IMG/VR virus record: IMGVR_UViG_3300006028_000001
Span: 33,470 to 97,469 of that record
Length of the DNA: 64,000 nucleotides
Direction: 5' to 3' (one strand)
Source of the DNA: a virus
Shown: one piece after another, positions 40,010 to 62,861 of the stretch
Layout: every line of letters starts with the position of its first letter
How positions within the stretch are numbered: position 1 is the stretch's first letter
The notes under the pieces: model-generated
What the model was told of the DNA's origin: nothing
What the model saw: only the letters and a program-made list of their open reading frames with translations
The model's database searches: none
Position numbers and translations under genes: made by a program

Positions 40010-40039
40010 GTGCTACGTCAGCCGCCCCGCAGGGGTTGC
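40010..40039 (-). promoter_or_regulatory. ECF-type promoter element (copy A)
   Basis: Leftward: GCAACC (40039-40034), 16 bases, then CGTAGC. It stands 41 bases before the ParB-like start codon. Same motif and spacing as copies at 43086, 45656, 47113 and 56390; see findings. Confidence 0.65.
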
Positions 40040-40136
40040 ACCCCATCGAAGATTCTTTTCCCGGTCGCGTTCCCGACACCCCCACCACCCGGCCGGGCGA
40101 GCGTGCCCACCTGCGATCCGCCGGTACGGTCAGGCG

Positions 40137-40682
40137 ATGCGCCTGCCCCGCCGCCCGCTGCCGTGGATCCTGGCCGGCGTCGGCCTGCTGGCAATGTGCT
40201 GCGGCGCCCTGACCGTGCTGGGGCTGATCGTCGACCCGCCGAAGACGAAGGCCACCTCCAGCACCGCCCGGGCGAGCAGCGCCCCAGCCGTGCCCGCGAC
40301 GTCAGCCAGCGCGAGCCCAACCCCGAAGCCCAGCCCCACGCCGCCGCCCTCGTCGAAGCCGGCCGCCAAGCCGAGCTCGGCCGCGCCCGCCGACCCGGAC
40401 CACCGGCTGTGCCGGCTCACCTCCGACGGCGGCACCTACTACGTGTGGATCACTTCGGCGACCGCGCACCGGTTCGACGCCTGCGCCGGCGGCACCGTGG
40501 ATCCGCGCACGGTGGATGACCTGCTGCTGGGCACGCCCGGGATGGACCGGCGCTGCATCTTGGGCGACGCCTACACGCAGGCGCATGAGGCGATCGTCGG
40601 CGTGTACTCGGACACCAAGGCGGCGAATCTGGCCGCGGCGCGGTCGTTCTGCGCGGCGGGCGGCGGCACCGACAGCGGGTGA
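40137..40682 (+). CDS. exported or membrane-anchored hypothetical protein
   Basis: 181 residues from ATG 40137. A hydrophobic helix at about 8-32 is followed by a Ser/Pro/Ala-rich linker (35-85) and a small domain of about 90 residues with four Cys (LCRLT, DACAG, RRCILG, FCAAG), likely disulphide bonded outside the cell. TACGGT ten bases before the ATG suggests leaderless transcription. A lone rightward gene, it looks like a lysogeny cargo gene. Confidence 0.7.
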   Translation: MRLPRRPLPWILAGVGLLAMCCGALTVLGLIVDPPKTKATSSTARASSAPAVPATSASASPTPKPSPTPPPSSKPAAKPSSAAPADPDHRLCRLTSDGGTYYVWITSATAHRFDACAGGTVDPRTVDDLLLGTPGMDRRCILGDAYTQAHEAIVGVYSDTKAANLAAARSFCAAGGGTDSG

Positions 40683-40751
40683 CGGGCGTCACAGAGAAAG
40701 ATTGCCGGTAGGGGCGGATCTCGCGGCCAGGGAGTAGGAGCCGCTCCGGGG

Positions 40752-40770
40752 TGTCGCTATGTACGCGACA
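40752..40770. terminator. small hairpin between convergent genes
   Basis: TGTCGC (40752-40757) pairs with GCGACA (40765-40770). It lies in the 96-base gap where the rightward exported-protein gene and a leftward operon meet. It could end transcription from either side. Confidence 0.4.
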
Positions 40771-40778
40771 TCTCCACA

Positions 40779-41033
40779 TCACCCCCGCCGCCGGTAGGTC
40801 CACGCCTGCGGCCACGCCCCCCGCGTCTCCTTGACCCGCTCCGCGAACCCTTCCGCCACCAACCCGGCCAGCGCCGACGCCACGTACCCCTTGGTGAACC
40901 CGGTCTCCCGGGCCAAATCCTGCACGGTGCGCCGCCGGTCAGGGGTGGCTTGCAGCGCCCGCCGCAGCGCCTCCGGGCACGACACGTCCCGGCCGGCCGG
41001 GCGCAGCTTCGACGGATGTGCGGCGGCGTTCAC
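40779..41033 (-). CDS. small winged-helix protein
   Basis: 84 residues from GTG 41033. Winged-helix pattern: LRRALQATPDRRRTVQDLARE, recognition helix TGFTKGYVASALAGLV, wing GFAERVKETRG. DNA-binding regulator at the end of the DUF6221 cluster operon. Confidence 0.75.
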   Translation of the reverse strand: MNAAAHPSKLRPAGRDVSCPEALRRALQATPDRRRTVQDLARETGFTKGYVASALAGLVAEGFAERVKETRGAWPQAWTYRRRG

Positions 41034-41248
41034 GGCTGCTTCCCGGCATGGACCTCGCGCCAGTGCCGGCGGTAGATGCCTTCCGGGCCGTCCGGCTGCC
41101 AGTCGCCCTCGTCATCTTCCCAGTCGCAGCCGTCGATCCGGCACCACACCCGCACGTAGTAGTCGGGGCTGTAGTCCGGCTCACCCTCCTCGCCGCGGGC
41201 GACCGGGGCGTAATCCCAATCGTCGCGGGTGTACCCGCCCACGCTCAC
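41030..41248 (-). CDS. small acidic protein
   Basis: 72 residues from GTG 41248. Very acidic and aromatic (DDWDYAPVARGEEGEPDYS), with a Cys pair (WCRIDGCDW) and a C-terminal His-containing helix. Could be a metal-binding or DNA-mimic type protein; overlaps both neighbours by four bases. Confidence 0.65.
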   Translation of the reverse strand: MSVGGYTRDDWDYAPVARGEEGEPDYSPDYYVRVWCRIDGCDWEDDEGDWQPDGPEGIYRRHWREVHAGKQP

Positions 41249-41661
41249 CGCTGCTCCTCGACGGTCACGCCGTACATCTCGGCCAGCGCCTCCACCACGT
41301 CAGTCAAGGCCACCATGCGGGCCATGGCGCGGACCTGATCGACGCTGTGGTGCGCAGTCTTCGCCCGCCGCCGGGCCTGCTCGTACAGGTCGAGGATGAT
41401 CCGGTGCGCCGCCACCATGCGCAGGGTGCGGGCCGGGTCGTGGCGGGCGACATGGTCAGCGTCAGCCCTACCCTGATCGGAATCCTCGAACTCCGGTGAA
41501 CCCGCCGGTCCGCGCACGTACCAGCCGAAGTCGCCGTAGTAGTGCAGCTTCCCGTACTCCGGGTCGACGTCGTGGGACTGCCAAGGGCCGGGGCTCGCCG
41601 CCTTCGCCACCCGCTCGTCCTCATCGAGCGCGCTGGTCAGCCGCGCCACCAAGTCGCTCAC
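41245..41661 (-). CDS. DUF6221-type protein
   Basis: 138 residues from GTG 41661; the longer in-frame reading to 42267 overlaps other genes. It shows the family pattern: LVARLTSALDEDERVA, SPGPW, and HDPARTLRMVAAHRIIL near the end. DUF6221 proteins abound in Streptomyces and actinophages; function unknown. The adjacent gene is a paralogue. Confidence 0.75.
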   Translation of the reverse strand: MSDLVARLTSALDEDERVAKAASPGPWQSHDVDPEYGKLHYYGDFGWYVRGPAGSPEFEDSDQGRADADHVARHDPARTLRMVAAHRIILDLYEQARRRAKTAHHSVDQVRAMARMVALTDVVEALAEMYGVTVEEQR

Positions 41662-42002
41662 ATCACCCTCCACTCGTCGCGGAACTCCGGATGCCCCGTG
41701 AACGGTGCGGCGAGCACACGCACGACGTAGCACTGCGCGGCGCACTTCTTGTGCAGGTCGAGCAGAAGCCGCTTCGCCGCAAGGTCGGCCAGCACGAACT
41801 GCGGGTCGTTGGCGACGATGTGCTCGGGCAGCGCGCGCAGCCACGGACCGGGCTCGTCGAAGTTCTCCACGACCACGAGGTCTTCGGCGTGCACGTCCAA
41901 CCCGTTTCGGGCGACATGCCACGGGCCGGGGACAGTTGCTTGCGCCTTCGCCTCCAGCTCGTCGTAGCGGGCGCGCAGGAACTCCACGATCTCGCTGCTC
42001 AT
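41658..42002 (-). CDS. DUF6221-type protein, paralogue
   Basis: 114 residues from ATG 42002, overlapping both neighbours. Same design as the preceding gene: IVEFLRARYDELEAKAQ, PGPWHVAR, then NDPQFVLADLAAKRLLLDLHKK. Two tandem members suggest local duplication. Confidence 0.7.
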   Translation of the reverse strand: MSSEIVEFLRARYDELEAKAQATVPGPWHVARNGLDVHAEDLVVVENFDEPGPWLRALPEHIVANDPQFVLADLAAKRLLLDLHKKCAAQCYVVRVLAAPFTGHPEFRDEWRVM

Positions 42003-42409
42003 GACGCCTCCACCAGCAGCCCCGTGGCGCAGCCGCACGGCACCCGCAGCACCGTCGCGCGCCGCTCGCCGAAGCCCTGCACCGGGAACCAGCGGCGGTC
42101 CCAGCAGGACAGACACGCGTACCGGCTGCGCCCCTCGCCGTCCAGGGCGTAGCTGGCCTGCCCCGGGCAGCCGTGATCGTCCGGCCGGCACGTGTCGTGG
42201 TGGTCAGGGTCCCGACCGCAGCCCTGACACTCGCCGCAGATCTCATCCACCACCAGCACGGTGTCATCCGGATCCAGCACGCCGCCGAAGTTGACCGACG
42301 GCAACGCCATCGTGAACCGCGCGCCAGTGACGCCTGCGCCGAGGCAGGAGCCGCAGCGGTTCGGGCCGGAGTACGGCGACGGGGCGGGTAAGTACAGGCG
42401 GGCGGTCAT
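41999..42409 (-). CDS. Cys-rich zinc-binding protein
   Basis: 136 residues from ATG 42409. Several CxxC pairs (CGSCLGAG, CGECQGCG, CLSCW, CGCATG), as in DnaJ-type or ribbon zinc domains, spread over the length. Likely binds two or three zinc ions; partner unknown. Confidence 0.7.
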   Translation of the reverse strand: MTARLYLPAPSPYSGPNRCGSCLGAGVTGARFTMALPSVNFGGVLDPDDTVLVVDEICGECQGCGRDPDHHDTCRPDDHGCPGQASYALDGEGRSRYACLSCWDRRWFPVQGFGERRATVLRVPCGCATGLLVEAS

Positions 42410-42615
42410 CGGTCCTCCAGTCCGCCGAGGATGGTCAGCATGCGCTGCCCCTTGTCGCTGAGGCTCTGTATTTCCAGGTCGATGAGCCCGTTAACGACGG
42501 CGTACGTCGCGGCGCTGGCGAGCCGATGCGGCACGGGTAGGTGGCCGTCGGCGACCAGCCGTAGGGTCGCGGCAAGGTCATTCGTTGATGGCGGGCCGTT
42601 CAGTGGGGCAATCAT
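42406..42615 (-). CDS. small hypothetical protein
   Basis: 69 residues from ATG 42615. Two helices with a hydrophobic face (LAATLRLVADG, TYAVVNGLIDLEIQSL). No family recognised. Confidence 0.6.
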   Translation of the reverse strand: MIAPLNGPPSTNDLAATLRLVADGHLPVPHRLASAATYAVVNGLIDLEIQSLSDKGQRMLTILGGLEDR

Positions 42616-42620
42616 CTCGT

Positions 42621-43049
42621 TTACCGGCCCTCTCCCGTCACGGCGTCGATGGCTGCGATCAGGGCGGCTCGGCGCGGCCAGACAACCGACACGCGGGCCG
42701 GCTTCTCAAACTGGGCCCGCCACTCGACGGCCGCGTCCCGCAGCTTCTGCAGCCGCTCCACCTCGGCAACCAGCGCCGGAAGTGCCCTGCGGGCAGCGGC
42801 GATCAACTCGGCATCCTCCCGCGTCCCGTAGGTGACGGTGATGTCCACGGCCGGGGCGTCCTCCGGATGGTCGAGCGGGTTGACGTAGGCGTCGTTGCAC
42901 ACCGCCCACGCCGGCGGCGAGGACGTGCCTTCGTTGGCGTTGTACGCCTGCCACGGGCCGGGTGTGGCCGCCTGGTCGAGCGCCTTCAGGGCGTCCAGAT
43001 TGAGGGGCTGGTCGGTGGCGGCCGGAGTGGGCTGGTCGGTGGTGCTCAT
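42621..43049 (-). CDS. Ead/Ea22-like (DUF6221-related) protein
   Basis: 142 residues from ATG 43049. The N-terminal PGPWQAYN and the later EDAELIAAARRALPALVAEVERLQ match Ead/Ea22-like phage proteins of actinobacteria, related in layout to the DUF6221 genes downstream. First gene behind the ECF-type promoter copy at 43086. Unknown role; such proteins are non-essential in phages that have been studied. Confidence 0.7.
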   Translation of the reverse strand: MSTTDQPTPAATDQPLNLDALKALDQAATPGPWQAYNANEGTSSPPAWAVCNDAYVNPLDHPEDAPAVDITVTYGTREDAELIAAARRALPALVAEVERLQKLRDAAVEWRAQFEKPARVSVVWPRRAALIAAIDAVTGEGR

Positions 43050-43085
43050 GTCGCGGTTCCGTTCGCTCGGGTGGTCTGTCCCCCA

Positions 43086-43115
43086 GTGCTACGTCGCGGG
43101 CGGCGGTGGGGTTGC
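43086..43115 (-). promoter_or_regulatory. ECF-type promoter element (copy B)
   Basis: Leftward: GCAACC (43115-43110), 16 bases, CGTAGC. 37 bases before the start at 43049, in the gap after the gene at 43124. Nearly identical to copy A, including the GACGTAGCAC end. Confidence 0.65.
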
Positions 43116-43123
43116 GCCACGGC

Positions 43124-43414
43124 TCACCCCAGTTCTGTCAGCCGCCGCACCCACTGCTGCTGCGCCTGCCGCAGCTTCGCCTCCAGCCGCGGCGATCCGA
43201 GCGGGACGATCAGCGCCAGGTCCCGGTCCAGCTGGGCAATGGCCCGGCGCGCCTCCCGCCGGTACAGCGGGGCGCACAGATGGTCGGCGGCGGCCCGCAG
43301 CCAGCGCAGCGGCGGCAGGTCGAGCAGGGCGTACCAGCACCAGTCCAGGGCGCGCACGACGGCCGTGGCGGCGTGGTGGAAGGCGGCGGGGATGCGGGCG
43401 AGGTGGGTGGGCAT
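43124..43414 (-). CDS. small basic hypothetical protein
   Basis: 96 residues from ATG 43414, with GGAAGGA upstream. Trp/Arg/Ala-rich helices (WCWYALLDLPPLRWLRAAADH) and a basic C-terminal coiled segment. It follows the initiator gene in the same transcription unit. A longer frame through 43645 overlaps the initiator gene and is not supported. Confidence 0.6.
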   Translation of the reverse strand: MPTHLARIPAAFHHAATAVVRALDWCWYALLDLPPLRWLRAAADHLCAPLYRREARRAIAQLDRDLALIVPLGSPRLEAKLRQAQQQWVRRLTELG

Positions 43415-43416
43415 GG

Positions 43417-44211
43417 TCAGAGTCCTTCCGGTGGCAGCGCGCGCATCAGCTTCCGCGCGCTGATGCCGCACTCTGCGGCGGCCTCGGAGATGCCGTGGGT
43501 TCCGGCGCGCATGAGGGCGAAGGCACGTTCCAGCGTGGCTGGGTCGATCTCCGTGTCCCGTGTGCCGCCGATCGCGACACGGGGAGGTGTTGGCGGGATG
43601 GGGCGGGACGCTGCCCTGATCAAGGTCTTCAGGGGAATGCCGCACATCTTCGCGGCGTCCGCGAGCGAGTGGGTTTCCAGCAACGCCAGGGCACGTTCAA
43701 CCGGGTCGTCGCGCTTGGCGTCGTCAGCCGTGCCGCGAAGCGGCGACGGATGCGGCGCCCTTTCATTCTTTCTAGGAACGTGACGGTTACCGACGTGTCG
43801 GTAGACCGACGTGTCGGTTCCTGACACGTCGGTGGAAGTTGGTGACATATCCGCAGGTCGCGCCGACGTGTCAGTTTCCGACGTGTCGGTTCTTGATGCG
43901 TCGGTTGGGCAGTCCCGGATCTCCACCTCGGTGTGCCACTTGCCGTCTACGTCGTTGGTGCGGCGGTACCGGACGTAGCCGGCCTTCGCGAGCTCCGCCA
44001 TGGCGTTGCGCATCGCGCGGAAACCCTCGGACGCGTCGCCAGACAGCCGGGCGGTGGCGACCAGCTTGTCCACGGTGGTCTCCCACCCGTCGCGGTAGGA
44101 CAACAGCTCGGCAAGCAACCCCTTGGCGCGCCAACTGATCCGGTGGTCCTGGAGCGCGGCGTTCGCGATCGGGGTCCAGCCGCCGGTGGATTGAGTTCGG
44201 ATGATCCGCAC
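43417..44211 (-). CDS. replication initiator-like protein
   Basis: 264 residues from GTG 44211. Residues 5-100 form a winged-helix domain as in phage replisome organisers (AKGLLAELLSYRDGWETT, then FRAMRNAMAELAKAGYV). Residues 100-160 are a Thr/Asp/Ser-rich linker whose DNA carries iterons. The C-terminal 80 residues hold two short HTH-like repeats with CGIPLKTLI and CGISARKLM. The layout recalls lambda O: origin-binding domain, iteron-bearing linker, interaction domain. It would bind its own gene to start phage replication. Confidence 0.75.
   Translation of the reverse strand: MRIIRTQSTGGWTPIANAALQDHRISWRAKGLLAELLSYRDGWETTVDKLVATARLSGDASEGFRAMRNAMAELAKAGYVRYRRTNDVDGKWHTEVEIRDCPTDASRTDTSETDTSARPADMSPTSTDVSGTDTSVYRHVGNRHVPRKNERAPHPSPLRGTADDAKRDDPVERALALLETHSLADAAKMCGIPLKTLIRAASRPIPPTPPRVAIGGTRDTEIDPATLERAFALMRAGTHGISEAAAECGISARKLMRALPPEGL
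43790..43905. other. iteron cluster, candidate replication origin
   Basis: CCGACGTGTCGGT occurs at 43790-43802, 43806-43818 and 43878-43890, with near-copies at 43863-43875 and about 43895-43905 and an inverted copy at 43822-43832. Each contains CCGAC/GTCGG as an inverted repeat. They lie inside the linker region of the initiator gene, and an AT-rich stretch (43761-43789) borders them. This matches the classic initiator-embedded origin of lambdoid phages. Confidence 0.65.
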
Positions 44212-44212
44212 G

Positions 44213-44272
44213 TCAACGACCTACAATCGGTCGCACAGATGTACAGGACATTTGGCCAACTACGGTTGGCAT
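44213..44272 (-). CDS. possible leader peptide before the initiator gene
   Basis: 19 codons from ATG 44272, preceded by GGGAGGT in a 19-bp sequence also found before the gene at 44773. Its stop ends two bases before the initiator GTG. It may couple translation of the initiator; too short to be sure it is translated. Confidence 0.35.
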   Translation of the reverse strand: MPTVVGQMSCTSVRPIVGR

Positions 44273-44274
44273 GG

Positions 44275-44293
44275 GTCGGGGTACCTCCCGATC
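44275..44293 (-). promoter_or_regulatory. 19-bp leader sequence shared with 44754-44772
   Basis: Read leftward, GATCGGGAGGTACCCCGAC stands just before ATG 44272. Exactly the same 19 bases stand rightward at 44754-44772, directly before ATG 44773. The sequence contains the ribosome site, so it may be a control element shared by two divergent operons. Confidence 0.7.
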
Positions 44294-44338
44294 AAGGGCC
44301 GGGGTTCCAGGAGCGCCAACTCCTGCCCGGCCCGCCTG

Positions 44339-44644: not shown

Positions 44645-44650
44645 GTTCTC

Positions 44651-44728
44651 ATCCTGATCTAACTTCGCTATCTTGTCAACCTTGTCAAGGTGTGCAAGAC
44701 TGAGTCAGCAAGGCAAACGACCTGACTC
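44651..44728. promoter_or_regulatory. divergent control region with promoter and inverted repeat
   Basis: Leftward promoter: TTGACA (44679-44674), 17 bases, CAGGAT (44656-44651), then ATG 44644, so the message may be leaderless. A second TTGACA lies at 44688-44683. Toward the other operon, GAGTCAG (44702-44708) and CTGACTC (44722-44728) form a 7-bp inverted repeat, a likely operator. The 19-bp leader repeat follows at 44754. Confidence 0.5.
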
Positions 44729-44772
44729 GGTGTTGGCGCACTGATCAGGTCCCGATCGGGAGGTACCCCGAC

Positions 44773-45655: not shown

Positions 45656-45685
45656 GCAACCTTTCCGCCGCCGCTGACGTGGGAG
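45656..45685 (+). promoter_or_regulatory. ECF-type promoter element (copy E)
   Basis: GCAACC (45656-45661), 16 bases, CGTG (45678-45681), then ATG 45692 close behind. The -35-like part matches fully; the -10 half reads CGTG instead of CGTA. The only GCAACC copy with an imperfect -10 half. Confidence 0.5.
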
Positions 45686-45691
45686 CCAACC

Positions 45692-46123
45692 ATGACATTC
45701 CCCGAATACCCGTCGTACGAGAACCTCGTCGGCACCTTCGCCACGATCCTGCTCAAGGTCGACGACAACGACTACCAGGGCGACTCGCGCCTACTGCTGA
45801 CCGACGGCTTCCGGTTCGGCCTGCTGTTCTTCGGCTGGGGTTCGTGCTCCGGCTGCGACGCTCTCCAATCGGCGCAGGACGACGGCGAGCGGGCGCTGCG
45901 TGAGTTGCGCGACGACCTGGCGAACAAGACCCACTGGGAGGACAACGCCGCCGCTCTGGCTGCCTACATCGAGGGCAAGGACTGGTCGCTGGACTTAGGC
46001 GGCGGCTCAGTGGCCGACGCGGCGTTCCGCGCCCGGACGTTGGAGATCCTGCGGGACCTCGCCGCCGGCCGTACCGATGCCGCCACGGTCGAGACTGCGG
46101 CGACCAAGCAGATCGGCCGGTGA
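45692..46123 (+). CDS. hypothetical protein
   Basis: 143 residues from ATG 45692, directly behind the ECF-type element. An N-terminal alpha/beta core (VGTFATILLKVDDNDYQGDSR, then CSGCD) is followed by an acidic helical half. A frequent unannotated protein type of actinophages. Coupled to the next gene by ATGA-like overlap. Confidence 0.65.
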   Translation: MTFPEYPSYENLVGTFATILLKVDDNDYQGDSRLLLTDGFRFGLLFFGWGSCSGCDALQSAQDDGERALRELRDDLANKTHWEDNAAALAAYIEGKDWSLDLGGGSVADAAFRARTLEILRDLAAGRTDAATVETAATKQIGR

Positions 46124-46305
46124 CCGCCATGCACACCGTCACCCACCCCTTCGCCGCCGCACCCGCCTCCGTCACCCACGCCCTCGCCACCGCGGCCAAC
46201 TTCTACCTCGACCACCTGCCGTGGGCGTTCGCCGCCGGCGCCGCGCTGATGGCCATCGCAGGCGTCCTGGCGTGGCGCGGCAGTCGCACCATCCGGAAGA
46301 CCTGA
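46120..46305 (+). CDS. small membrane protein
   Basis: 61 residues from GTG 46120. Amphipathic N-terminus and one hydrophobic helix (about 34-52) with a basic tail (RGSRTIRKT). No family recognised. Confidence 0.6.
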   Translation: MTAMHTVTHPFAAAPASVTHALATAANFYLDHLPWAFAAGAALMAIAGVLAWRGSRTIRKT

Positions 46306-46310
46306 GTCCG

Positions 46311-46679
46311 ATGGATGATCTGGACCCCGACCTGTCCACCTTGGCCCGCTGGGCGGTGGGCATGACCCTGCTGGACCTGCACGAGGCGCGGGCCACCCTG
46401 TGGGGTGCGCTGATCCGCTACGACGTGCACACCGGCGCCGAACTGCCGCAGCCGCGACCGGACTTCGCCCCATACAACGGCTTGGTCCGCCGCGGCCTGC
46501 CGTCAGGCTGGGAGCACTGGTGCTGGCGGCGGGGCCTGCTGCGGCAGGACATGACCCCTGGCCTTCCGCATTGGGTGCCCACCGATGAGGCGGTGCAGCT
46601 GGCGGAGAAGTGGATCGCCGGGGGTGGTCCGCCGGCGACTGAAATCCCCGACGACGACGAGAGCGAGGCGCACCCGTGA
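46311..46679 (+). CDS. hypothetical protein
   Basis: 122 residues from ATG 46311. Many Trp and Asp/Arg, with a central aromatic motif (GWEHWCWRRGLLRQDM) and an acidic C-terminus. An earlier in-frame start would overlap the upstream gene. Overlaps the next gene by four bases. Unknown function. Confidence 0.6.
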   Translation: MDDLDPDLSTLARWAVGMTLLDLHEARATLWGALIRYDVHTGAELPQPRPDFAPYNGLVRRGLPSGWEHWCWRRGLLRQDMTPGLPHWVPTDEAVQLAEKWIAGGGPPATEIPDDDESEAHP

Positions 46680-46888
46680 GCACGCAATCCGATGACGGCC
46701 GCCGCTACGCCCTGGTGACCGTGGAGCAGCTGACCTGCCCGCAGGACGCGTGGCGGCTGCTGGACAACGCGGAGCCGGTGATCGTACACGGCTCAGCCGA
46801 GCTGGGCCGGAGGATGGCTGAGATCCACCAGTCGGGCCGGTCGGGGATGTTCTTCTTCATCGACATGCCGGACGGAGACAGATCATGA
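46676..46888 (+). CDS. small hypothetical protein
   Basis: 70 residues from GTG 46676. Compact alpha/beta (RYALVTVEQL, PVIVHGSAELGRRMAE, MFFFIDMPDG). No family recognised; coupled both ways. Confidence 0.55.
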   Translation: MSTQSDDGRRYALVTVEQLTCPQDAWRLLDNAEPVIVHGSAELGRRMAEIHQSGRSGMFFFIDMPDGDRS

Positions 46889-47139
46889 CCGCCGCGACGT
46901 GGGTGGGCTACGACGTGCCTGAGGCTGAGGCGGCGCCGGTGTTTCCGGTGCTGGAGTGTTCCGAGGCGGCACCGCTGCGGGACTGGACCGAAATCACGAT
47001 CCGGCCCGTTCGCGAGGTCCACTGCCCGATCCACGGCGTGCTCGGGCACACGGTGCGCGCGGATGAGGCGCGGGCCATTCGTGACGCGCACTGGAAGACG
47101 GCACACTCCGGCGCAACCTCCGACGACGTGGCGACGTAG
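46885..47139 (+). CDS. small hypothetical protein with Cys/His
   Basis: 84 residues from ATG 46885. Acidic N-terminus and C-terminal HCPIHGVLGH, a Cys/His cluster that could bind zinc. Its 3' end overlaps the ECF-type element at 47113. Confidence 0.55.
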   Translation: MTAATWVGYDVPEAEAAPVFPVLECSEAAPLRDWTEITIRPVREVHCPIHGVLGHTVRADEARAIRDAHWKTAHSGATSDDVAT

Positions 47140-47142
47140 CAA
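47113..47142 (+). promoter_or_regulatory. ECF-type promoter element (copy D)
   Basis: GCAACC (47113-47118), 16 bases, CGTAGC (47135-47140). 39 bases before ATG 47181; overlaps the last codons of the upstream gene. Opens the operon that carries the intramembrane protease. Confidence 0.6.
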
Positions 47143-47180: not shown

Positions 47181-47798
47181 ATGGGCTGCACCACCGAGTT
47201 CACCGGCCGCGTCACCGTCGAGCCGCCACTGAACCCCGACGAGATCGCCTACCTGACCAAGTTCGCCCGGACCCGGCGGATGCACCGCAACAACGGTCCG
47301 TACTTCGTGGATGGGTCCGGCGCGTACGGGCAGGGACGCGACGCCGACATCATCGAGTTCAACAGCGAGCCGCCCGAGCAGCCCGGACTGTGGTGCCGGT
47401 GGGTGCCGACCGAGGACGGCGCCGGGATTGAGTGGGACGGCGGCGAAAAGTTCTACGACGCCGACCGCTGGATGGCGTACCTGATCGACACGTTCCTCAA
47501 GTCGGGCGCGACGGTTCAAGGCGAGCTGGCCGTGCCCGTCGACGGCCGCGTCTACCACGATGCGTTCGAGCGGTTCACCTTCGACCACGTCGTCAACGGC
47601 CGCATCGAGGCCCAGGGCGAACGGGACGACGACCACTGGACGCTGGTCGTGGTCGACAACGAGGTAAGCGTCGAGAAGTACCCGACGATGGCGGAGCGGA
47701 TGGAGTCCGACCCGGATTTGGCCGTCGCCGTGGAGCGCCTCAGGCAAGCTCGCGTGACGGTTTCCCAGTTCGCCGCGCTGACCGGTCAGGAGTACTGA
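47181..47798 (+). CDS. conserved actinobacterial hypothetical protein
   Basis: 205 residues from ATG 47181; AAGGAG at 47165-47170 favours it over GTG 47172. It begins MGCTTEFTGRVTVEPPLNPDE and contains RTRRMHRNNGPYFV and LWCRWVPTEDGAGIEWDG. I recognise this as a family widespread in Streptomyces and related genomes with unknown function. An alpha/beta protein with conserved Trp and acidic residues. Confidence 0.75.
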   Translation: MGCTTEFTGRVTVEPPLNPDEIAYLTKFARTRRMHRNNGPYFVDGSGAYGQGRDADIIEFNSEPPEQPGLWCRWVPTEDGAGIEWDGGEKFYDADRWMAYLIDTFLKSGATVQGELAVPVDGRVYHDAFERFTFDHVVNGRIEAQGERDDDHWTLVVVDNEVSVEKYPTMAERMESDPDLAVAVERLRQARVTVSQFAALTGQEY

Positions 47799-47799
47799 G

Positions 47800-48003
47800 A
47801 TGGCCATTGAGGTTACCGTCCGAGACACCGAGACCGGCGACACGGACACCGTGATCGTCGAGGACTACCTGTTGACCGTCGTCGAGCCCTGCTACCTGGC
47901 CAACCAACAGGGCCATCCGAACGGCACGCACGTGCTGACCATCAAGAACGCCACCCGCCCTCTGATCAGCACGAACGTGACCTACGAGGATGGCCCGCAA
48001 TGA
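47800..48003 (+). CDS. small hypothetical protein
   Basis: 67 residues from ATG 47800, one base after the previous stop. Beta-rich with repeated acidic/Thr strands (DTETGDTDTVIVEDYLL). Overlaps the next ATG. Confidence 0.6.
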   Translation: MAIEVTVRDTETGDTDTVIVEDYLLTVVEPCYLANQQGHPNGTHVLTIKNATRPLISTNVTYEDGPQ

Positions 48004-48455
48004 CCGACAACCTGGCCAACCTGTTCGCCAACGAACCCCCAGACAGCACCGCGCTGGTGGCGTGGCGCGACGGCGTGCCGGAGGTGTTGCAGCGCGACGA
48101 CGGCGCCGCCGACGAGGTGGGTGCTGGCGTCGGCGAACACTGGTGGTCCACGTCGAAGGTGAAGCCGATGACGCTGCAGGTGGCCCTGGACGGCGCCGAG
48201 CGGGTGGATGCGGTGGTGCCGCTGGAGCAGTCGCGCCTTGTCGTGGCCGAGCAGGTCGCCGATACCCACGTGGCGGTGCCGGTCGAGCAGTGGCGGCAGA
48301 TGTGCGAGCTGCGCGACAAGGTCAAGCTGTGGCGGGCCGACCTGAACGCATGCGGCTGGACCAGCGAAGAAGCGTCGGATAACACCCGCGCCGTGATCGC
48401 CGCCGTCGACGCCCTGGACGAGGACGACCCGCAGGCGGAGGCCGACGGTGCCTGA
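48000..48455 (+). CDS. hypothetical acidic protein
   Basis: 151 residues from ATG 48000. Acidic, with a beta-rich middle and C-terminal helices (VPVEQWRQMCELRDKVKLW). Overlaps neighbours on both sides. No family recognised. Confidence 0.6.
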   Translation: MTDNLANLFANEPPDSTALVAWRDGVPEVLQRDDGAADEVGAGVGEHWWSTSKVKPMTLQVALDGAERVDAVVPLEQSRLVVAEQVADTHVAVPVEQWRQMCELRDKVKLWRADLNACGWTSEEASDNTRAVIAAVDALDEDDPQAEADGA

Positions 48456-48717
48456 CCTGATGCGCCCACCCAACGACATCGTCGCCGAAGCCCGTGCCGC
48501 CTTCGACCGCTGCGGCGAGATCCTGGCCGCCTCCGCCCCGTCGACAGCACCCGGGTTCATGGCGCATGTGCTGGTGATTGCCGGGGAGGCGCTGGACCGG
48601 CACTGGCCGACGGCGGGCGGCTTCTGCGGCTTCTGCGACAGCCAGCGGTGGCCGTGCCCGGACCTGGCCGGCTGGCTGAAGCTGTTCGCCATCCCGCTTG
48701 AGGAGGAGCAGCCGTGA
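48448..48717 (+). CDS. small Cys-containing helical protein
   Basis: 89 residues from GTG 48448. Helical with a CGFCDSQRWPCPD motif near the C-terminus, probably a zinc site. Unknown function. Confidence 0.55.
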   Translation: MPDLMRPPNDIVAEARAAFDRCGEILAASAPSTAPGFMAHVLVIAGEALDRHWPTAGGFCGFCDSQRWPCPDLAGWLKLFAIPLEEEQP

Positions 48718-48896
48718 TCCGATGGCGCCGCAAGCCGCGCCCGGTTGTCGTGCCGGGGCCGGACATCCAGCGTGAGATCGCCGCCTTGGCCGCCGCGATC
48801 ACAACCGTGCACAGAGAGGTGTTCCGCCCAGGCCGCGACTGCGACCTGGACGACGACGGCCGCTGCGCGGCGATCCGACGAGGGAGAACCAAGTGA
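48714..48896 (+). CDS. small hypothetical protein
   Basis: 60 residues from GTG 48714. Basic N-terminus, a middle helix (IQREIAALAAAITTV) and two Cys (DCDLDDDGRCAAI). Coupled to the protease gene by GTGA overlap. Confidence 0.5.
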   Translation: MIRWRRKPRPVVVPGPDIQREIAALAAAITTVHREVFRPGRDCDLDDDGRCAAIRRGRTK

Positions 48897-49657
48897 GCCG
48901 CGTTGAGCCAACCATTGCACTCCACATCCTGATCCTCGCCGCCGTCCTGCTGCTCGTCGTCGGCATCCACGAGGCCGGCCACGCCGTCGCCATGCGTCGC
49001 TTCGGCATGCGCCCCATCGCCGCCGGCGTCGGGCTGCCGCTGCCACCAGTGCTGCGGCTGCGCCTGAGCAGCACATTCACCTTCACCCTGTCGCCCTGGC
49101 TCCTCGGCGCCTACGTCGAACCGTCCGAGCGCGACACCGAGCGGATCCCCGACCTGCCATACCGAGACGCCGCCTGGGTCTACAACGCCGGTGTGATCGT
49201 CAACTTCGTGTTCGGCTTCGCCGTCACCGCAGTCGCAGCCCGCAGCACGTTCGGCACGCTGATCTACAGCATTGCGGCGGTCGCTATTTGGGCACTGCGC
49301 CGGTTGGTGGCCGGGTACGTGCTGCCCCTGCTGGCCATCCCGGCGCTCGGCATCACCTTGTACGGAATGGTCCTGTCGTGGAGCCAGGGTCAGTCCGGTG
49401 TCGGGTTCGCCGGCCTGGTGGACCTTGTGCCCACCGACCCGCCAAGGCTGCTGTCGTTCGTCGGTGTCATCTCCATCGTCGTCGGCATCCTGAATCTTGT
49501 TCCCGTGTATCCACTGGACAACGCCCGCGTCTGCGACCTGCTGCTGGGCCGGTGGGTCGGGCCGCAGTTCCTGGCCTGGTTCCGCGGGGTGGGTGTCGCG
49601 CTCATGCTGCTGTCGCTGGTCGGCGCGGTCCTGTCGGATCTCTTGGCCGCGATCTGA
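48893..49657 (+). CDS. site-2 intramembrane protease (M50 family)
   Basis: 254 residues from GTG 48893. The catalytic zinc motif HEAGH is at residues 26-30 in the first membrane helix, and the third-ligand motif LDNAR (usually LDGGR) at about 208-212, following NLVPVYP. Five or six hydrophobic helices. The call to S2P is strong. In bacteria these enzymes cleave membrane-bound anti-sigma factors after a first cut, releasing ECF sigma factors. It ends the operon opened by the ECF-type promoter at 47113; see findings. Confidence 0.88.
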   Translation: MSRVEPTIALHILILAAVLLLVVGIHEAGHAVAMRRFGMRPIAAGVGLPLPPVLRLRLSSTFTFTLSPWLLGAYVEPSERDTERIPDLPYRDAAWVYNAGVIVNFVFGFAVTAVAARSTFGTLIYSIAAVAIWALRRLVAGYVLPLLAIPALGITLYGMVLSWSQGQSGVGFAGLVDLVPTDPPRLLSFVGVISIVVGILNLVPVYPLDNARVCDLLLGRWVGPQFLAWFRGVGVALMLLSLVGAVLSDLLAAI

Positions 49658-49723: not shown

Positions 49724-50392
49724 GTGATCCGTCGCCCCGCCGTCCTGCTCGCCACGGTCGCCCTGCTGACCGCCTGCACCGCAACCCCGGGCGGCACCAG
49801 CTCATCGAGCGCGCCTACGTCGCCGGCACTAACCCCGTCCGGCATCGTGGTGGCCAACGGCCACGGCTGGACCCCCGCCGGCCTGGACGGCCCGATCCCG
49901 GCACCCGGAACGTGCCACCTGCGCACCGCGGCGGATGGTGAGCCGCTGCCCGACCCGCGCTGCACCCCCGGCGCGATCGACGCCGCGGTCACCGACACCA
50001 ACACGGCGAGCACGGTGTGCCGAAAGGGTGGCTACACCTCAAGCGTCCGGCCACCGGAGGCGTTGACGGAGCCGGTGAAACGCAAACTGCTCGCGGCGTA
50101 CGGCATCCCGGCGTCAGAAATCGGCAAGTACGAACTGGACCACCTCGTCGACCTGGCGGCCGGCGGAGCGTCGGACGTACGCAACCTGTGGGTGGAGAGC
50201 AATACGTTCCACGACTTCAAGCCATCCACGTTCGTGCACAACGACAAGGACGCTGTCGAGAGCTACACCTTCCACGCCATCTGCGCCGGCAAGGTCACCG
50301 TCACGCAGGTGCAGGCGGCGATCGTCGCGGACTGGACGATCGCGGTGGCCCGGCTGGGGTTGCCGCCGATCCCCGCCAACTTCCAGGGCTGA
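49724..50392 (+). CDS. HNH-like nuclease domain lipoprotein
   Basis: 222 residues from GTG 49724. N-terminal lipoprotein signal with lipobox LLTAC (Cys18). The C-terminal domain has ELDHLVDLAAGGASDVRNLW, the core of HNH-type secreted nuclease proteins (Glu/Asp/His, then Gly, then Asn). A phage-coded exported nuclease could block incoming DNA of competing phages. The same domain is common in host exoproteins, so acquired cargo is the alternative. Confidence 0.75.
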   Translation: MIRRPAVLLATVALLTACTATPGGTSSSSAPTSPALTPSGIVVANGHGWTPAGLDGPIPAPGTCHLRTAADGEPLPDPRCTPGAIDAAVTDTNTASTVCRKGGYTSSVRPPEALTEPVKRKLLAAYGIPASEIGKYELDHLVDLAAGGASDVRNLWVESNTFHDFKPSTFVHNDKDAVESYTFHAICAGKVTVTQVQAAIVADWTIAVARLGLPPIPANFQG

Positions 50393-56389: not shown

Positions 56390-56419
56390 GTGCTACGTCG
56401 CCCCGGGCGCTGGGGTTGC
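56390..56419 (-). promoter_or_regulatory. ECF-type promoter element (copy C)
   Basis: Leftward: GCAACC (56419-56414), 16 bases, CGTAGC, then 25 bases to ATG 56365. Opens the long leftward array to 50818. Matches copies A and B through GACGTAGCAC. Confidence 0.65.
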
Positions 56420-58186: not shown

Positions 58187-59548
58187 ATGGCCATCACCCC
58201 CCGGCCCCGCAGCGGCGGGTACCGCATCGAATGGCGACACGGCGGCACCCGCGTCGGCAAGACCCAGTCCTGCACCTTCCCCGACGAGCAGATGGCCACC
58301 ACGGCGGTTGCGCTGGTCGAGTCCCGGGCCCGGGCGATCACCGACCGGGAGGTGTACCAGGCTGTCCTCGGTCTCGAGGATGAGGCCCCGGCGTGCCCGC
58401 TGTTTGCCGAGTGGCGCGCGAGGTGGCTGGCCGGCAAACGGGACGTGTCCGAGGACACCCTGCGGGAGTACCGGTACCTGCTGAACACGCCGCGGGTAAC
58501 CGACCGGCTCGGCGACCTGCGACTGGACCACATCGACCACGACCTGATCGCGAAGTTGATGGCCGAGGTCAGCGACGCTGGGCGCGCGCCGGCGACCGTA
58601 CGGAAACTACACGTGGTGCTGCACCAGGTGTTCCGCGACGCCATTCCCCGCCACCTGAGCGTCAACCCGTGCGCCCGGCCGCCCGGGCAACGCTCCAACG
58701 GCCTGCCGAAGGTGAGACGGCACCCGGCCGTGTACCTCACGCCGACCGAGGCCGAGCTGATCCTGCGGTGCTGCCCCATCGAGATCCGCGACCTGGTGAC
58801 CGTGGCGTTCGGCACCGGCCTTCGCCTGGGCGAGCTGCTGGCGCTTCGGGTGGGCGCGGTCGACCTGGACGCCGACGTGCCGGTCATGCATGTGCAACGG
58901 GCGCGCAAGAAGTCGGGCAAGGTGGGCGACCCGAAGTCGGAGGCCGGCAACCGGCCGGTGGCGCTGACCACCACGCTGGGCACGGTCCTGTCGCCGCGGG
59001 TGGTCGGCAAGGGTCCGAACGCGCTGGTGTTTCCCTCGCCCGGCGGCAAGATGTGGGACCCGAAGAACCTGCGCAACCGGTACTGGAAGCCGGCGATCAT
59101 CGCGGCGGCACGCTGCGTCGAGCATCCGCCGAAGTCGCAGGGGTCCGAGACGGCACCCGAGTCGGATCCAGACCTGCTGTGCGGCGACTACGGCGGCACC
59201 CGCCACGACGGCGGCCTGTGCCGGGCGACGGTGGCGACCGGCTGGACCCGCTGCCGCTGGCATCTCGGCCCGGCGCAGGACGCGGTGTCGAACTGCGACT
59301 GCCCATCCCGCCTGCACGTTTCGCCGCGGTTCCACGACACCCGGCACAGCGCGGTTGACTGGCTGCTGGACGCCGGGTGGGAACTGACCGATGTGCAGAT
59401 CCGCATCGGCCACGGTTCGGTCAAGACGACGATTGACCAGTACGGCAACCGGCGCAGGCGCCCCAATCAGGAGCGGCTGGCCGCGTTGGACAAGGCGTTG
59501 AGCCGAGCGACGTCAGGCGCTGCCGCGTCAAGCGCTGCTGCGGCGTAG
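58187..59548 (+). CDS. int: tyrosine-family integrase
   Basis: 453 residues from ATG 58187 (no ribosome site; TAGCGT ten bases upstream suggests a leaderless message). An arm-binding and SAM-like core domain (about 1-165) precedes the catalytic domain with Arg213 (TGLRLGELLAL), His383-x-x-Arg386 (HDTRHSAVDWLL), His409 and Tyr419. Between Arg213 and the HxxR box there is a Cys-rich insertion (about 330-375: six Cys and His residues) that probably binds zinc. It would recombine attP with the host tRNA gene. Its 3' end overlaps the repressor gene on the other strand. Confidence 0.93.
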   Translation: MAITPRPRSGGYRIEWRHGGTRVGKTQSCTFPDEQMATTAVALVESRARAITDREVYQAVLGLEDEAPACPLFAEWRARWLAGKRDVSEDTLREYRYLLNTPRVTDRLGDLRLDHIDHDLIAKLMAEVSDAGRAPATVRKLHVVLHQVFRDAIPRHLSVNPCARPPGQRSNGLPKVRRHPAVYLTPTEAELILRCCPIEIRDLVTVAFGTGLRLGELLALRVGAVDLDADVPVMHVQRARKKSGKVGDPKSEAGNRPVALTTTLGTVLSPRVVGKGPNALVFPSPGGKMWDPKNLRNRYWKPAIIAAARCVEHPPKSQGSETAPESDPDLLCGDYGGTRHDGGLCRATVATGWTRCRWHLGPAQDAVSNCDCPSRLHVSPRFHDTRHSAVDWLLDAGWELTDVQIRIGHGSVKTTIDQYGNRRRRPNQERLAALDKALSRATSGAAASSAAAA

Positions 59549-59971
59549 CCGGTCCTGGATCGCGCGGGCTTCGGCGGCCTTCACCCGAATCTTCTCGGTG
59601 AGGTCCTGCCGTTCCTGGTCGGTCAGGTGCGGGTTGGACCAGACTTCGTCTATCAGCTCGTTCTCCCACGCCACGATGTGATCCACCTCGACGGACCCGG
59701 CGCTGGGCGCGTGTGGCGCGCCGGCGAGCGGGGTTGGTTCGCCGCCTTCGAGGATGCGGGTCACGCTGCCAGATTCCCAGCCGAGGACCTGCTCGATGCT
59801 GCGGTAGGTGGTGGCCCGCACGGTGGCCGCTGTGCCGTTCTCAACGCCGCGCCAAGTAGTCGGGCTGACCTGCGCCCGGGCGGCCGCCTCGGTGAGCGGA
59901 ACGCTGCCGCGGGCTCGCCGAACCTGGTCGCCGAGCCGCTGTCGGTCCTTCGGGGTGATCACAACTGACAT
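59528..59971 (-). CDS. immunity repressor-type HTH protein
   Basis: 147 residues from ATG 59971; an upstream start adds only untranslated-looking bases. An XRE-type HTH at about 10-60 (LGDQVRRARGSVPLTEAAA, VSPTTWRGVENG) and a C-terminal helical region rich in acidic residues. It lies opposite the Cro-like gene across the operator region, in the usual arrangement of a phage switch. A metal-free, non-cleavable type (no LexA-like peptidase part). Confidence 0.8.
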   Translation of the reverse strand: MSVVITPKDRQRLGDQVRRARGSVPLTEAAARAQVSPTTWRGVENGTAATVRATTYRSIEQVLGWESGSVTRILEGGEPTPLAGAPHAPSAGSVEVDHIVAWENELIDEVWSNPHLTDQERQDLTEKIRVKAAEARAIQDRLRRSSA

Positions 59972-59996
59972 CCTGCCAGCGCCAAACAGCGCCATC

Positions 59997-60158
59997 TAGC
60001 GTCACCCCCCGCAGTACCGGCAGCCACGAGCGACATTCGCATCAGTCACGCACGCACGGCAGGCAGTGGTCAAGACCGATGGACAGAACTGGGGTCACTT
60101 CCGAGCAACGCTGACTGACGCTGCTTGACGCTGACGCCAGTTCTGGCTACAGTTCTGG
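59997..60158. promoter_or_regulatory. operator region of the lysis-lysogeny switch
   Basis: Two repeated sets occur. CAGTTCTGG at 60150-60158, as part of CCAGTTCTGG at 60137-60146, and inverted as CAGAACTGG at 60084-60092. Also TGACGCTG-type repeats near 60115 and 60126, with an inverted TAGCGTCA at 59997-60004 in front of the repressor. Two repressor-like proteins (59528, 60161) each probably bind one set. Confidence 0.55.
60125..60153 (+). promoter_or_regulatory. rightward early promoter
   Basis: TTGACG (60125-60130), 17 bases, TACAGT (60148-60153); ATG 60161 follows, so the message is leaderless or nearly so. Both CAGTTCTGG copies overlap the spacer and -10, as expected for repression of an early promoter. 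Confidence 0.7.
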
Positions 60159-60160
60159 TC

Positions 60161-60439
60161 ATGGCCGAACGAGTACACACATCGTCGGTGCCGGTTGACG
60201 CGGCGAAAGTTCGGCGAATGCGACAGCTCGCAGGGCTCACCGTCAAGGAACTGGCCGAACGGGCGGAGATCAGCCGCTCCTACATGTCGGACATCGAGAC
60301 GGGCTACCGCAACCCGAGCGCGCCAGTTTTCGCCCGCCTCTGCAACGCGCTCAAGGTGTCCCGCAGGGATCGCGCCGCGCTGCTGCGTGGCGACGACGTC
60401 GACGAGGCCGACGAGCCGGTTGCGCAGGCGGTGGCCTGA
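60161..60439 (+). CDS. Cro-like XRE HTH protein
   Basis: 92 residues from ATG 60161. A classic XRE HTH (MRQLAGLTVKELAERAEISR, SYMSDIETGYRNPS) with short acidic tail. It faces the repressor and sits right behind the early promoter, as Cro does. It is coupled to the next gene by TGATG overlap. Confidence 0.8.
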   Translation: MAERVHTSSVPVDAAKVRRMRQLAGLTVKELAERAEISRSYMSDIETGYRNPSAPVFARLCNALKVSRRDRAALLRGDDVDEADEPVAQAVA

Positions 60440-60765
60440 TGTCCGCCACATTCCCGTGCCTCGACGAGATCTTTCGCCGTCGCCCGTTGCTCAGCCTCGA
60501 CGAGGTGGTGGAGCTGACCGGCTTCCGGCGTCGGCCCCTGCTGGATGACTGCCGCGCCAAGCGGGTTCTGTGCTCCTACCGGTCGCAGGACTTCTTCTTC
60601 AACAAGGAGCAACTCGAACTTCTGCTCGCCTCGGCGAGCCAGCCGGTCGTCAGGCCCAGCGCGCGCCCCAAGCCGAACGTCGCCGTCACCGCCGCGTCGT
60701 CGTCGGTGGATGTGGACGCCTGGGCGGCCCGCAAACGTCAGCAGCTGGCCCGGAAGGCGGGCTGA
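60439..60765 (+). CDS. small HTH protein, candidate excisionase
   Basis: 108 residues; ATG 60439 overlaps the Cro-like stop. The N-terminal half has SLDEVVELTGFRRRPLLDDC and FFFNKEQLELLLA, the layout of a small winged HTH of excisionase type. The C-terminal half is Ser/Ala/Pro-rich and basic. Position after cro and near int fits an Xis role, though a second regulator is possible. Confidence 0.55.
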   Translation: MSATFPCLDEIFRRRPLLSLDEVVELTGFRRRPLLDDCRAKRVLCSYRSQDFFFNKEQLELLLASASQPVVRPSARPKPNVAVTAASSSVDVDAWAARKRQQLARKAG

Positions 60766-60768
60766 CCG

Positions 60769-60930
60769 ATGCGCGACTTCTGCCTCGACCTTTACAACTC
60801 CGCCACCCGAGGTGCCTCCCCCGGATGTGGCGGTTCCGACACGGCCCGCTCCGCCAGCGGCACCGGTCGGAACGCGGGCCGGGATCTCGCCCCCCGCGGG
60901 TCCCGGCCCGCCCCAAGCCCAAGCACATAA
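60769..60930 (+). CDS. possible 53-residue gene
   Basis: ATG 60769 with GGAAGG eleven bases before; codons largely end in G or C. Gly/Ser/Arg-rich, two Cys (DFCLDLY, PGCGGS) and no obvious fold. It may be real or a chance frame before the following hairpin. Confidence 0.3.
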   Translation: MRDFCLDLYNSATRGASPGCGGSDTARSASGTGRNAGRDLAPRGSRPAPSPST

Positions 60931-60931
60931 A

Positions 60932-60972
60932 GCGAGGCGCCCCGGTGCCGGAAACACCGAGACGCCCACATG
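60932..60972 (+). terminator. hairpin of actinobacterial type
   Basis: GGCGCCCCGGTG and CACCGAGACGCC pair with two mismatches around a 7-base loop. Hairpins of this look, without T-runs, often follow genes in GC-rich actinobacteria. It separates the switch operon from the downstream genes. Confidence 0.4.
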
Positions 60973-61006
60973 ACCTTTGGCCCGCACGGCCAGAAAGCCG
61001 ATCCTG

Positions 61007-61327
61007 ATGCGAACGATACCAACATCAACGCCATTCGTCGATGCGCCACCACCCGAACAGACGGCCACCGCCGCCGCTTCGGCTGTTGATCTGCCCGGCG
61101 CACACGAGGACGTCAACCGGTTCCAGCGGCAGCGGGCCAACCGCCTCGGGCATGTGTGCCGCGACTGCCGTAACCCGGACTGTGTCGGTGAGCAGCGCGA
61201 CGAGCACGAGCTGGCGTTCGCGCAGGCCGAGTCGTCGGCGCTGCTGAACGCGTCGCAGTACTTCGCCTGCCCCGGCTGCGGCCAGGACACGCGTTACGCC
61301 CCGGCGTGCCGACCGGCGGTGCCGTGA
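61007..61327 (+). CDS. small zinc-binding protein
   Basis: 106 residues from ATG 61007 (weak ribosome site; ATG 60970 would start a different short frame). The central CRDCRNPDCVG and later CPGCGQDT form a probable four-Cys zinc site. Basic/Pro-rich N-terminus. Overlaps the next gene. Confidence 0.6.
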   Translation: MRTIPTSTPFVDAPPPEQTATAAASAVDLPGAHEDVNRFQRQRANRLGHVCRDCRNPDCVGEQRDEHELAFAQAESSALLNASQYFACPGCGQDTRYAPACRPAVP

Positions 61328-61608
61328 TGCCCGCCACCATCCACACCCCGGGCGTACTGCCGGAGGGGCCGATGTCCCCGTTCCGGCAGCAGCTGCTTGA
61401 CGTGCTCCGCACCGCACACGTCGCGCTGGACACCAACGAGATCGCCCGCCGGGTCGGGGTGCCGCAGACCAGGGACAAGCTGCGGGACCTGCACTACCAC
61501 CTGAACCGGCTGGAACGGGCGGGCCTGATCGCGGTCAAGCGATCCGGCCGTGGTCGTGGCATCCGCAACCTGTACCGCGCGGTCGACACCACCGGCGGTG
61601 GGCGATGA
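61327..61608 (+). CDS. small winged-helix regulator
   Basis: 93 residues; ATG 61327 overlaps the previous stop. A winged helix reads FRQQLLDVLRTAHVALDTNEI, then DKLRDLHYHLNRLERAG, and wing RSGRGRGIRNLYR. Directly before the sigma gene and coupled to it, so it may control the sigma operon. Confidence 0.7.
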   Translation: MPATIHTPGVLPEGPMSPFRQQLLDVLRTAHVALDTNEIARRVGVPQTRDKLRDLHYHLNRLERAGLIAVKRSGRGRGIRNLYRAVDTTGGGR

Positions 61609-62861
61609 GCACCGCAACCCTCGACCGCCCGGCCGTCCTCGACGAGACCGCGTTCACGGCGCTGTGGAGCGAACACGCCGCCATCACCCGATACATCGCC
61701 CGGCATGTGCCGCACAACGAGGCCGCCGACCTGGCCGACGAAACGTTCACCCGCGCCTGGGCCGGCCGGCACACCTACCGCCCCGGCGCCGGCAGCCCCA
61801 CCGGATGGCTGTACGCCATCGCCGGGCGGGTCGTCGCCGACCACTACCGCACCGCCGGCCGGCGTGTGCACACCGTCGGCATCTGGCCCGACCACGACGA
61901 CGCCGACCACACCGACGTGGCCGCCGACACCGTGTCGGACGCGGCCGTGGCCGAACTGCTCGCGGCGCTGCCGGAGCGGCAGCGGCTGGTGCTGATCCGC
62001 CGCATCCTGCAGGACCAGCCGGTCGCTGCGGTTGCCGCCGAGCTGGACTGCACCCAGGGCACCGTCAAGTCGCTGGCGCATCGCGCCCTCGTCGCGCTGC
62101 GCGCCCTGCTGGCCCCCGCACCGGAGCCGGTCGCGGTCGAGCCGGCCCCCGAACCCGTCGTCGCCCCGGTGACGCCGCCTGCCCCCGAACCCCGGAGTCC
62201 CCATGCCGTTACCCCAACTCGCCCTCGCTGCGCTCGTGGCAGCCGGCGGCCTTCTGGTTGTGCTCGGCCCACTGGCCGTGGCCCGCTACGTCAGCGGCCG
62301 GTCGGCCGCCCCGGTGCAGCCGCCGCCGGAGGGATCCAAGCTCTGGTATCCCGACATCCATTCCACCGCCCCGACCTCACCGGATGTGGCCGGCATGGAG
62401 CCGCCGCCGAAGCCGTGGGAGGTGGACTGGGACCGCCTGGATCTGGAACGCCGGGTGACCGACGCCATCGTGCCCGAGCAGCGGCAGGACGCCTCGTGAC
62501 CGCCGCGCAGATGTGGGCGACCATCCTCCTCGCCGCCGCGTTCGCCGCCGTGGCGGCCGTCGGGTGGCTGTGGGCGAGCCGGGATCCCCAAAGCAGACGC
62601 GACAGCCGGGCGGCCTTCGACGAGCTGCACCAGCTCAACGAGCGGCGGCAGAAGGAAATCGGCACCCTCGCGATCTTCCAGCGCACCCCGGTCGGCGCAG
62701 ACCTGGTCGCCACCGCGGCAGCGCCGCCGACTGTCCCGGGCATCGAGTTCGAACGCACGCAGCGGCTCGAACCGAAGCCGATTCCGCAGGATGTCGTCGA
62801 CCACGTCGAGTTGTGGCGGCAGGCCAACACCGGACGCCACTGGGCTGGTGAGCAGTCGTGA
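61605..62861 (+). CDS. ECF-type RNA polymerase sigma factor (frame stays open into downstream genes)
   Basis: ATG 61605 overlaps the previous stop as ATGA. Residues 15-85 are sigma region 2 (FTALWSEHAAITRYIARHV, ADLADETFTRAW, GWLYAIAGRVVADHYR); residues 112-168 are region 4 (LLAALPERQRLVLIRRIL, then QGTVKSLAHRAL). No anti-sigma motif is seen. The frame does not stop after the sigma domain. It runs on through a Pro/Arg-rich stretch, where the real genes read other frames, to 62861. The functional sigma is probably residues 1 to about 200, with an unusual 3' end. It is the best candidate to read the five GCAACC-N16-CGTA promoters. Confidence 0.8.
   Translation: MSTATLDRPAVLDETAFTALWSEHAAITRYIARHVPHNEAADLADETFTRAWAGRHTYRPGAGSPTGWLYAIAGRVVADHYRTAGRRVHTVGIWPDHDDADHTDVAADTVSDAAVAELLAALPERQRLVLIRRILQDQPVAAVAAELDCTQGTVKSLAHRALVALRALLAPAPEPVAVEPAPEPVVAPVTPPAPEPRSPHAVTPTRPRCARGSRRPSGCARPTGRGPLRQRPVGRPGAAAAGGIQALVSRHPFHRPDLTGCGRHGAAAEAVGGGLGPPGSGTPGDRRHRARAAAGRLVTAAQMWATILLAAAFAAVAAVGWLWASRDPQSRRDSRAAFDELHQLNERRQKEIGTLAIFQRTPVGADLVATAAAPPTVPGIEFERTQRLEPKPIPQDVVDHVELWRQANTGRHWAGEQS
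62203..62499 (+). CDS. single-span membrane protein overlapping the sigma frame
   Basis: 98 residues from ATG 62203. GC at third positions is high in this frame but not in the sigma frame, so this is the real reading here. One hydrophobic helix (about 6-28), then a Pro-rich acidic tail (EVDWDRLDLERRVTD). Overlaps the sigma frame and couples to the next gene by GTGA. It could interact with the sigma factor, but no anti-sigma motif is visible. Confidence 0.6.
   Translation: MPLPQLALAALVAAGGLLVVLGPLAVARYVSGRSAAPVQPPPEGSKLWYPDIHSTAPTSPDVAGMEPPPKPWEVDWDRLDLERRVTDAIVPEQRQDAS
62496..62861 (+). CDS. membrane protein in the sigma frame, separate gene
   Basis: 121 residues from GTG 62496, which overlaps the previous TGA. 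One hydrophobic helix (about 8-28), then a charged helical part (FDELHQLNERRQKEIGTLAIF). It is in the same frame as the sigma gene, so a full fusion protein is formally possible but unlikely. Coupled to the next gene. Confidence 0.6.
   Translation: MTAAQMWATILLAAAFAAVAAVGWLWASRDPQSRRDSRAAFDELHQLNERRQKEIGTLAIFQRTPVGADLVATAAAPPTVPGIEFERTQRLEPKPIPQDVVDHVELWRQANTGRHWAGEQS

Follow-up and report, generated by a model that had tools for sequence, protein, structure and literature searches.

The locus examined here raises the question of whether an ECF sigma factor encoded by a phage serves a promoter repeated in front of the phage's own operons, as had been proposed from a short bipartite element (GCAACC and CGTA or, once, CGTG, 16 bases apart) that recurs at five places on the same DNA. 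The stretch analysed, here termed the window, makes up the rightmost 64 kb (positions 33470–97469) of a viral contig from IMG/VR that is 97,469 bp long; the remaining 33.5 kb of the contig was added to the analysis, and motif scans were run over the whole of it. Coordinates are those of the window unless given as contig positions (contig = window + 33469). The contig is 89% coding; its structural genes, among them those for terminase, portal, and tail, form a block that falls between contig positions 17.2 and 73.5 kb. The virus is temperate, and its host is a high-GC bacterium, probably an actinobacterium.

A repeated bipartite element and its placement

All five of the sites first proposed are present where they had been placed and on the strands assigned to them (Table 1), and they belong to a fuller element than the one originally described, GCAACC-N14-GACGTAGCA, which occurs 13 times in the contig: five times in the window and eight times in the left 17.3 kb. 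The consensus of the 13 sites is GCAACC(C/T)...(C/T)GACGTAGCA, within which GCAACC-N16-CGT is invariant (13/13). Over the whole contig, GCAACC-N14-GACGT was found 13 times against 0.11 expected (200 dinucleotide shuffles, maximum 1), and the same two halves at spacers of 8–13 and 15–21 nt gave 0–1 copies each. The looser form GCAACC-N14..18-CGT, with 11 matches in the window versus 5.5 expected, is weak by itself, and two further N16 matches in the window, at 2982 and 45183, are chance-like. Scored with a weight matrix, the 13 sites reach 25.6–37.4 bits and the next best match in the whole contig 9.5 bits; because the matrix was built from the same 13 sites, this 16-bit gap is to be read as an absence of intermediate sites and not as an independent P value. 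No second upstream dyad was found, except for an SD/start overlap.

A called start on the same strand lies 5–50 nt downstream of 10 of the 13 sites, compared with 3.8% at random (binomial P = 1.8e-12), a distance that depends on the start codons chosen by the home-made codon-usage script with which the genes were called; 10 of the 13 sites are also mostly intergenic. Both the enrichment over shuffled sequence and the position upstream of genes that the original prediction implied thus hold on the whole contig. Distances from CGT to the start codon cluster at 29–45 nt and are exactly 11 nt at two sites, for which leaderless or nearly leaderless mRNAs are therefore predicted; at both, an SD-like sequence (GGGAG at 45656) coincides in part with the −10 region, an arrangement that would be odd if the mRNA were leadered.

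The proposal that the sites stand before accessory operons was correct as far as it went, but the sites are not limited to such operons: in the left arm, they precede a Gp3/RDF-like gene, the DNA polymerase III beta (sliding) clamp gene, a primase-helicase operon, and small genes, and a cytosine methyltransferase gene lies within one left-arm run after a site. The weight matrix finds no site in the structural block (contig 17.2–73.5 kb). The metalloprotease encoded after the site at 47113 matches PF02163 (E 4.4e-24) and scores 39.8 bits with TIGR00054, below the cut-off of that model.

Several other features of the gene content were recorded. A lipoprotein-like signal is present in the protein encoded at 49724–50392, which also has an HNH-like stretch, judged by eye, at its C-terminal end; no Pfam match was obtained for it at E 0.05. 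Three CCGACGTGTCGGT-type repeats at 43806–43905, inside a replication-initiator-like gene (43417–44211), are possible origin repeats. In the 793-residue portal protein (contig 27630–30011), residues 613–738, close to the C terminus, match a NUDIX-like hydrolase.

Table 1. Putative promoters, the sigma gene, and genes of the early region; window coordinates unless marked as contig positions
Feature	Coordinates	Strand	Core (bits)	Start after CGT (nt)	Remarks
Putative ECF-type promoter, GCAACC-N14-GACGTAGCAC	40010..40039	-	40015-40039 (33.3)	45	operon 39969 to 37642
Putative ECF-type promoter	43086..43115	-	43091-43115 (37.4)	41	operon 43049 to 40779
Putative ECF-type promoter, GACGTGGGA variant	45656..45685	+	45656-45680 (26.1)	11	operon 45692-47139
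Putative ECF-type promoter	47113..47142	+	47113-47137 (32.1)	43	operon 47181-49657, M50 protease included
Putative ECF-type promoter	56390..56419	-	56395-56419 (35.8)	29	small - strand genes in a long series, from 56365 to 50818
Eight copies outside the window	contig 518, 5601, 6581, 10073, 12743, 13233, 16791, 17215	+			
M50 site-2-protease-like (RseP-like) membrane metalloprotease	48893..49657	+			operon after site 47113
Tyrosine integrase	58187..59548	+			
HTH protein, candidate lysogeny repressor	59528..59962	-			divergent from early operon; homologues in two other records
Sigma-70-like promoter match, TTGACG-17-TACAGT	60125..60153	+			divergent gap, towards Cro-like gene and sigma
Cro/C1-type HTH protein (HTH_31, HTH_3)	60218..60439	+			first gene of early operon
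ECF sigma factor	61605..62204	+			part with coding support; the ORF stays open to 62861
Small protein, one predicted membrane segment	62203..62499	+			overlaps sigma ORF in another frame
Small protein, one predicted membrane segment	62500..62861	+			in the frame of the sigma ORF

The sigma gene and the early region

The ECF sigma gene said to begin at 61605 is genuine. Its product carries sigma2 and sigma4 alone and passes the ECF superfamily model (TIGR02937, 59 bits with a cut-off of 42.9), with Pfam matches to PF04542 at residues 26–87 and to PF08281/PF04545 at 114–167, all above cut-off, the two domains being joined by a linker of some 27 residues, and no Pfam match to region 3 or 1.1; its top NCBIfam match is a SigE-family model, below the cut-off of that model. 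It is the sole protein of the contig with both sigma regions. The gene at 18991–19233, tried as a second sigma, was ruled out; it encodes an 80-residue HTH protein of the LuxR/GerE type, located among the late genes and possibly a late regulator.

Coding evidence for the sigma ends near 62202, supporting residues 1 to about 200, and beyond this point the ORF stays open to 62861, out of the favoured frame, for a total of 418 residues. The missing stop may reflect a lost stop or decay, a sequence error (a sequencing indel), or an extended protein. An anti-sigma is usually encoded beside ECF sigmas, and the two small proteins encoded at 62203–62499 and 62500–62861 gave no match to a known family in NCBIfam or Pfam. 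An AlphaFold model of the sigma made without an alignment (pLDDT 43) was too poor to use. Close relatives of the sigma were found neither in INPHARED nor in IMG/VR; GTDB genomes gave two weak matches, and plasmid matches cover the N-terminal half only.

The gene lies in the early operon, beyond the integrase, the divergent HTH gene, and the Cro-like gene. Streptomyces phages VWB and SF3 have the same gene order (int–HTH–Cro-like ... RDF-like–DnaQ-like), so that the sigma can be assigned to the early region of the phage. Because the RDF-like and DnaQ-like genes come next in VWB and SF3, the contig is probably continuous from its right end to its left. We also considered that the sigma might lie in host DNA at the contig end and rejected this as improbable, given the VWB/SF3-like gene order and the presence of the motif in both arms. 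The sigma-70-like match in the divergent gap was the one found in 8 kb, versus 0.2 expected. The sigma gene has no site of the repeated motif, and it is thus not autoregulated via this motif.

Promoter form and the sigma that would read it

Common ECF promoter motifs have AAC at −35 and CGT at −10 (PMC3933326), and the ECF-like form originally claimed for the element was borne out in its anatomy: an AAC-containing −35, a CGT-containing −10 with CG-T, and a spacer of 16 nt, within the usual 16–17. In M. tuberculosis sigma-L, which is the best PDB sequence match of the phage sigma, the −10 element is T-G-N-(C/A)-A-G, with C-G preferred just before it and the A at −8 contacted (PMC6372665). The phage −10 reads CG-T-A-G-C-A-C, and it thus resembles the sigma-L promoter not only in CG-T but in its additional conserved C and A, at sigma-L positions −9 and −8 (C/A and A in sigma-L). 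Sigma-L is chromosomal, however, and prefers G at −11 through Asp60, whereas the phage motif has A at −11 and the phage sigma has Pro60 in an ungapped alignment. The Streptomyces coelicolor sigma-E regulon (16–17 nt spacer, CGTCTA-type −10; PMC6767563) offers a second likeness among actinobacterial ECF promoters, with a similar spacer and a CGT-type −10, but it differs in its GGAAC-type −35, in its degenerate sites spread across the chromosome, and in its envelope stress function. Upstream of the phage −35, at 13–20 nt, there is an A+T-rich block (52%, compared with 32–33% in controls), at the position that would be expected of an upstream promoter element. The sequence thus supports regarding the 13 elements as ECF promoters with a −35 of GCAACC, a 16-nt spacer, and a −10 of CGTAGCA. 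We consider it likely that they are promoters for an ECF-sigma holoenzyme, the sigma most likely being the phage's own; that the product of the gene at 61605 reads all 13 sites is what we infer from their form, their uniqueness, and the joint occurrence of sigma and sites.

Alternatively, one could envision that these are ECF promoters read by an ECF sigma of the host, which would tie phage replication to host stress and leave the phage sigma some other role. Such a view would fit a sequence form that is generic for actinobacterial ECF sigmas and a sigma gene that lacks a site of its own. It is nevertheless unlikely in our judgement, as the sites are near-invariant and, among all records examined, confined to this contig, and as the phage has an ECF sigma of its own in its early region. 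Relatives were collected by terminase (up to 84% identical) or by sliding clamp (up to 68%), and in 30 of their viral records, mostly fragmentary and with head or clamp genes making up most of what is shared, Sigma70_r2 had no match and the motif, at background level, was not repeated in any comparable way; dyad scans of 12 clamp-bearing loci gave no equivalent element. These observations, made on records that are largely fragmentary, agree with a joint arrival of sigma and motif, for which they are weak evidence. A scan of viral contigs with the N14 spacer found a single match in the fetched stretch of each of 49 contigs, and a scan with an N15 spacer, a rough control, found 7 single matches. 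The 49 matches look like chance, because 26 of these records, searched whole, gave just 1–3 matches each to GCAACC-N15-ACGT.

The elements might also be binding sites for a repressor or an activator and not promoters at all. Stoperators lack symmetry, have an orientation, and lie close to many genes, for the most part between them, all of which can be said of the present sites, and the phage encodes several HTH proteins. However, the two half-sites show no dyad symmetry and are held at exactly the spacing of a −35 and a −10, the conserved bases fall at −10 positions used by an ECF sigma, an A+T-rich block lies upstream, and at most sites a start codon follows close downstream, so that we find this explanation very improbable. 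At two sites, the element overlaps an SD-like sequence and the start codon follows after 11 nt, which could point to an element that works in the mRNA, in start-associated fashion during translation, instead of in transcription initiation. This idea is scarcely credible when most sites lie 29–45 nt from the start with a separate SD-like sequence and a strong site (contig 518) falls within a called gene, with the next start 137 nt downstream.

Known phage systems and a possible regulatory scheme

Phage ECF sigmas with phage promoters of their own are already known from phiEco32 and its relatives, where the promoter consists of one block (gp36 of phiEco32 and the ECF sigmas of other Kuravirus members, 7-11, SU10, and Privateer; PMC4331800, PMC4281155, PMC7881722). 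As would be the case here, a phage ECF sigma directs host RNA polymerase to several near-identical middle and late promoters in these phages. They are, however, enterobacterial podophages whose single-block tAATGTATA-type promoter drives late structural genes as well, whereas the present putative promoter is bipartite, occurs in 13 copies, and covers no structural genes, in a temperate phage of high GC content; the system described here is thus not of the Kuravirus type. A literature search, which was not exhaustive, turned up no report of a canonical two-part ECF regulon in any phage.

Another parallel is phiC31, a temperate Streptomyces phage with repeated, phage-specific promoter-like elements before its early genes and a sigma-like protein, gp12. 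Nine copies of GGGTTGCCGACTYCCTTAC are found in phiC31, mostly before early genes and one about 30 nt before gp12, and gp12 may read the phiC31 early promoters; the same element has 0 matches in our window with up to 3 mismatches allowed. The gp12 gene (29958–31148) gives a Sigma70_r2 match above cut-off and falls in a PHROG named sigma factor. It differs from the sigma studied here in matching Pfam sigma region 2 alone and in belonging to a different PHROG.

If the phage sigma does read the 13 promoters, the following sequence of events is the most likely. Upon induction, a host-sigma promoter in the gap between the candidate repressor gene and the Cro-like gene would be released, and the early operon, with the Cro-like protein, small HTH proteins, and the sigma, would then be transcribed by host polymerase. 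The phage sigma would in turn recruit the host's core polymerase to both the replication arm and the right accessory arm, the 13 promoters presumably forming a middle transcription class, and the structural genes would be reached by read-through or through another signal. It is conceivable, though we think it rather improbable, that the ECF sigma gates the lytic programme while being itself under membrane control, via the small membrane proteins or the M50 protease; were this so, the phage would sense the state of the envelope through an ECF-style cascade of its own.

The uniformity of the sites makes the regulon and its transcription starts predictable to the base, and a sigma gene that occurs together with a repeated dyad gives a criterion by which further systems of this kind could be found. 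Should the promoters prove to be those of the phage sigma, the two would constitute an orthogonal expression pair for high-GC bacteria, and this phage would have adopted the most common kind of alternative sigma in bacteria, together with its canonical two-part promoter, as the basis of a replication and accessory regulon.
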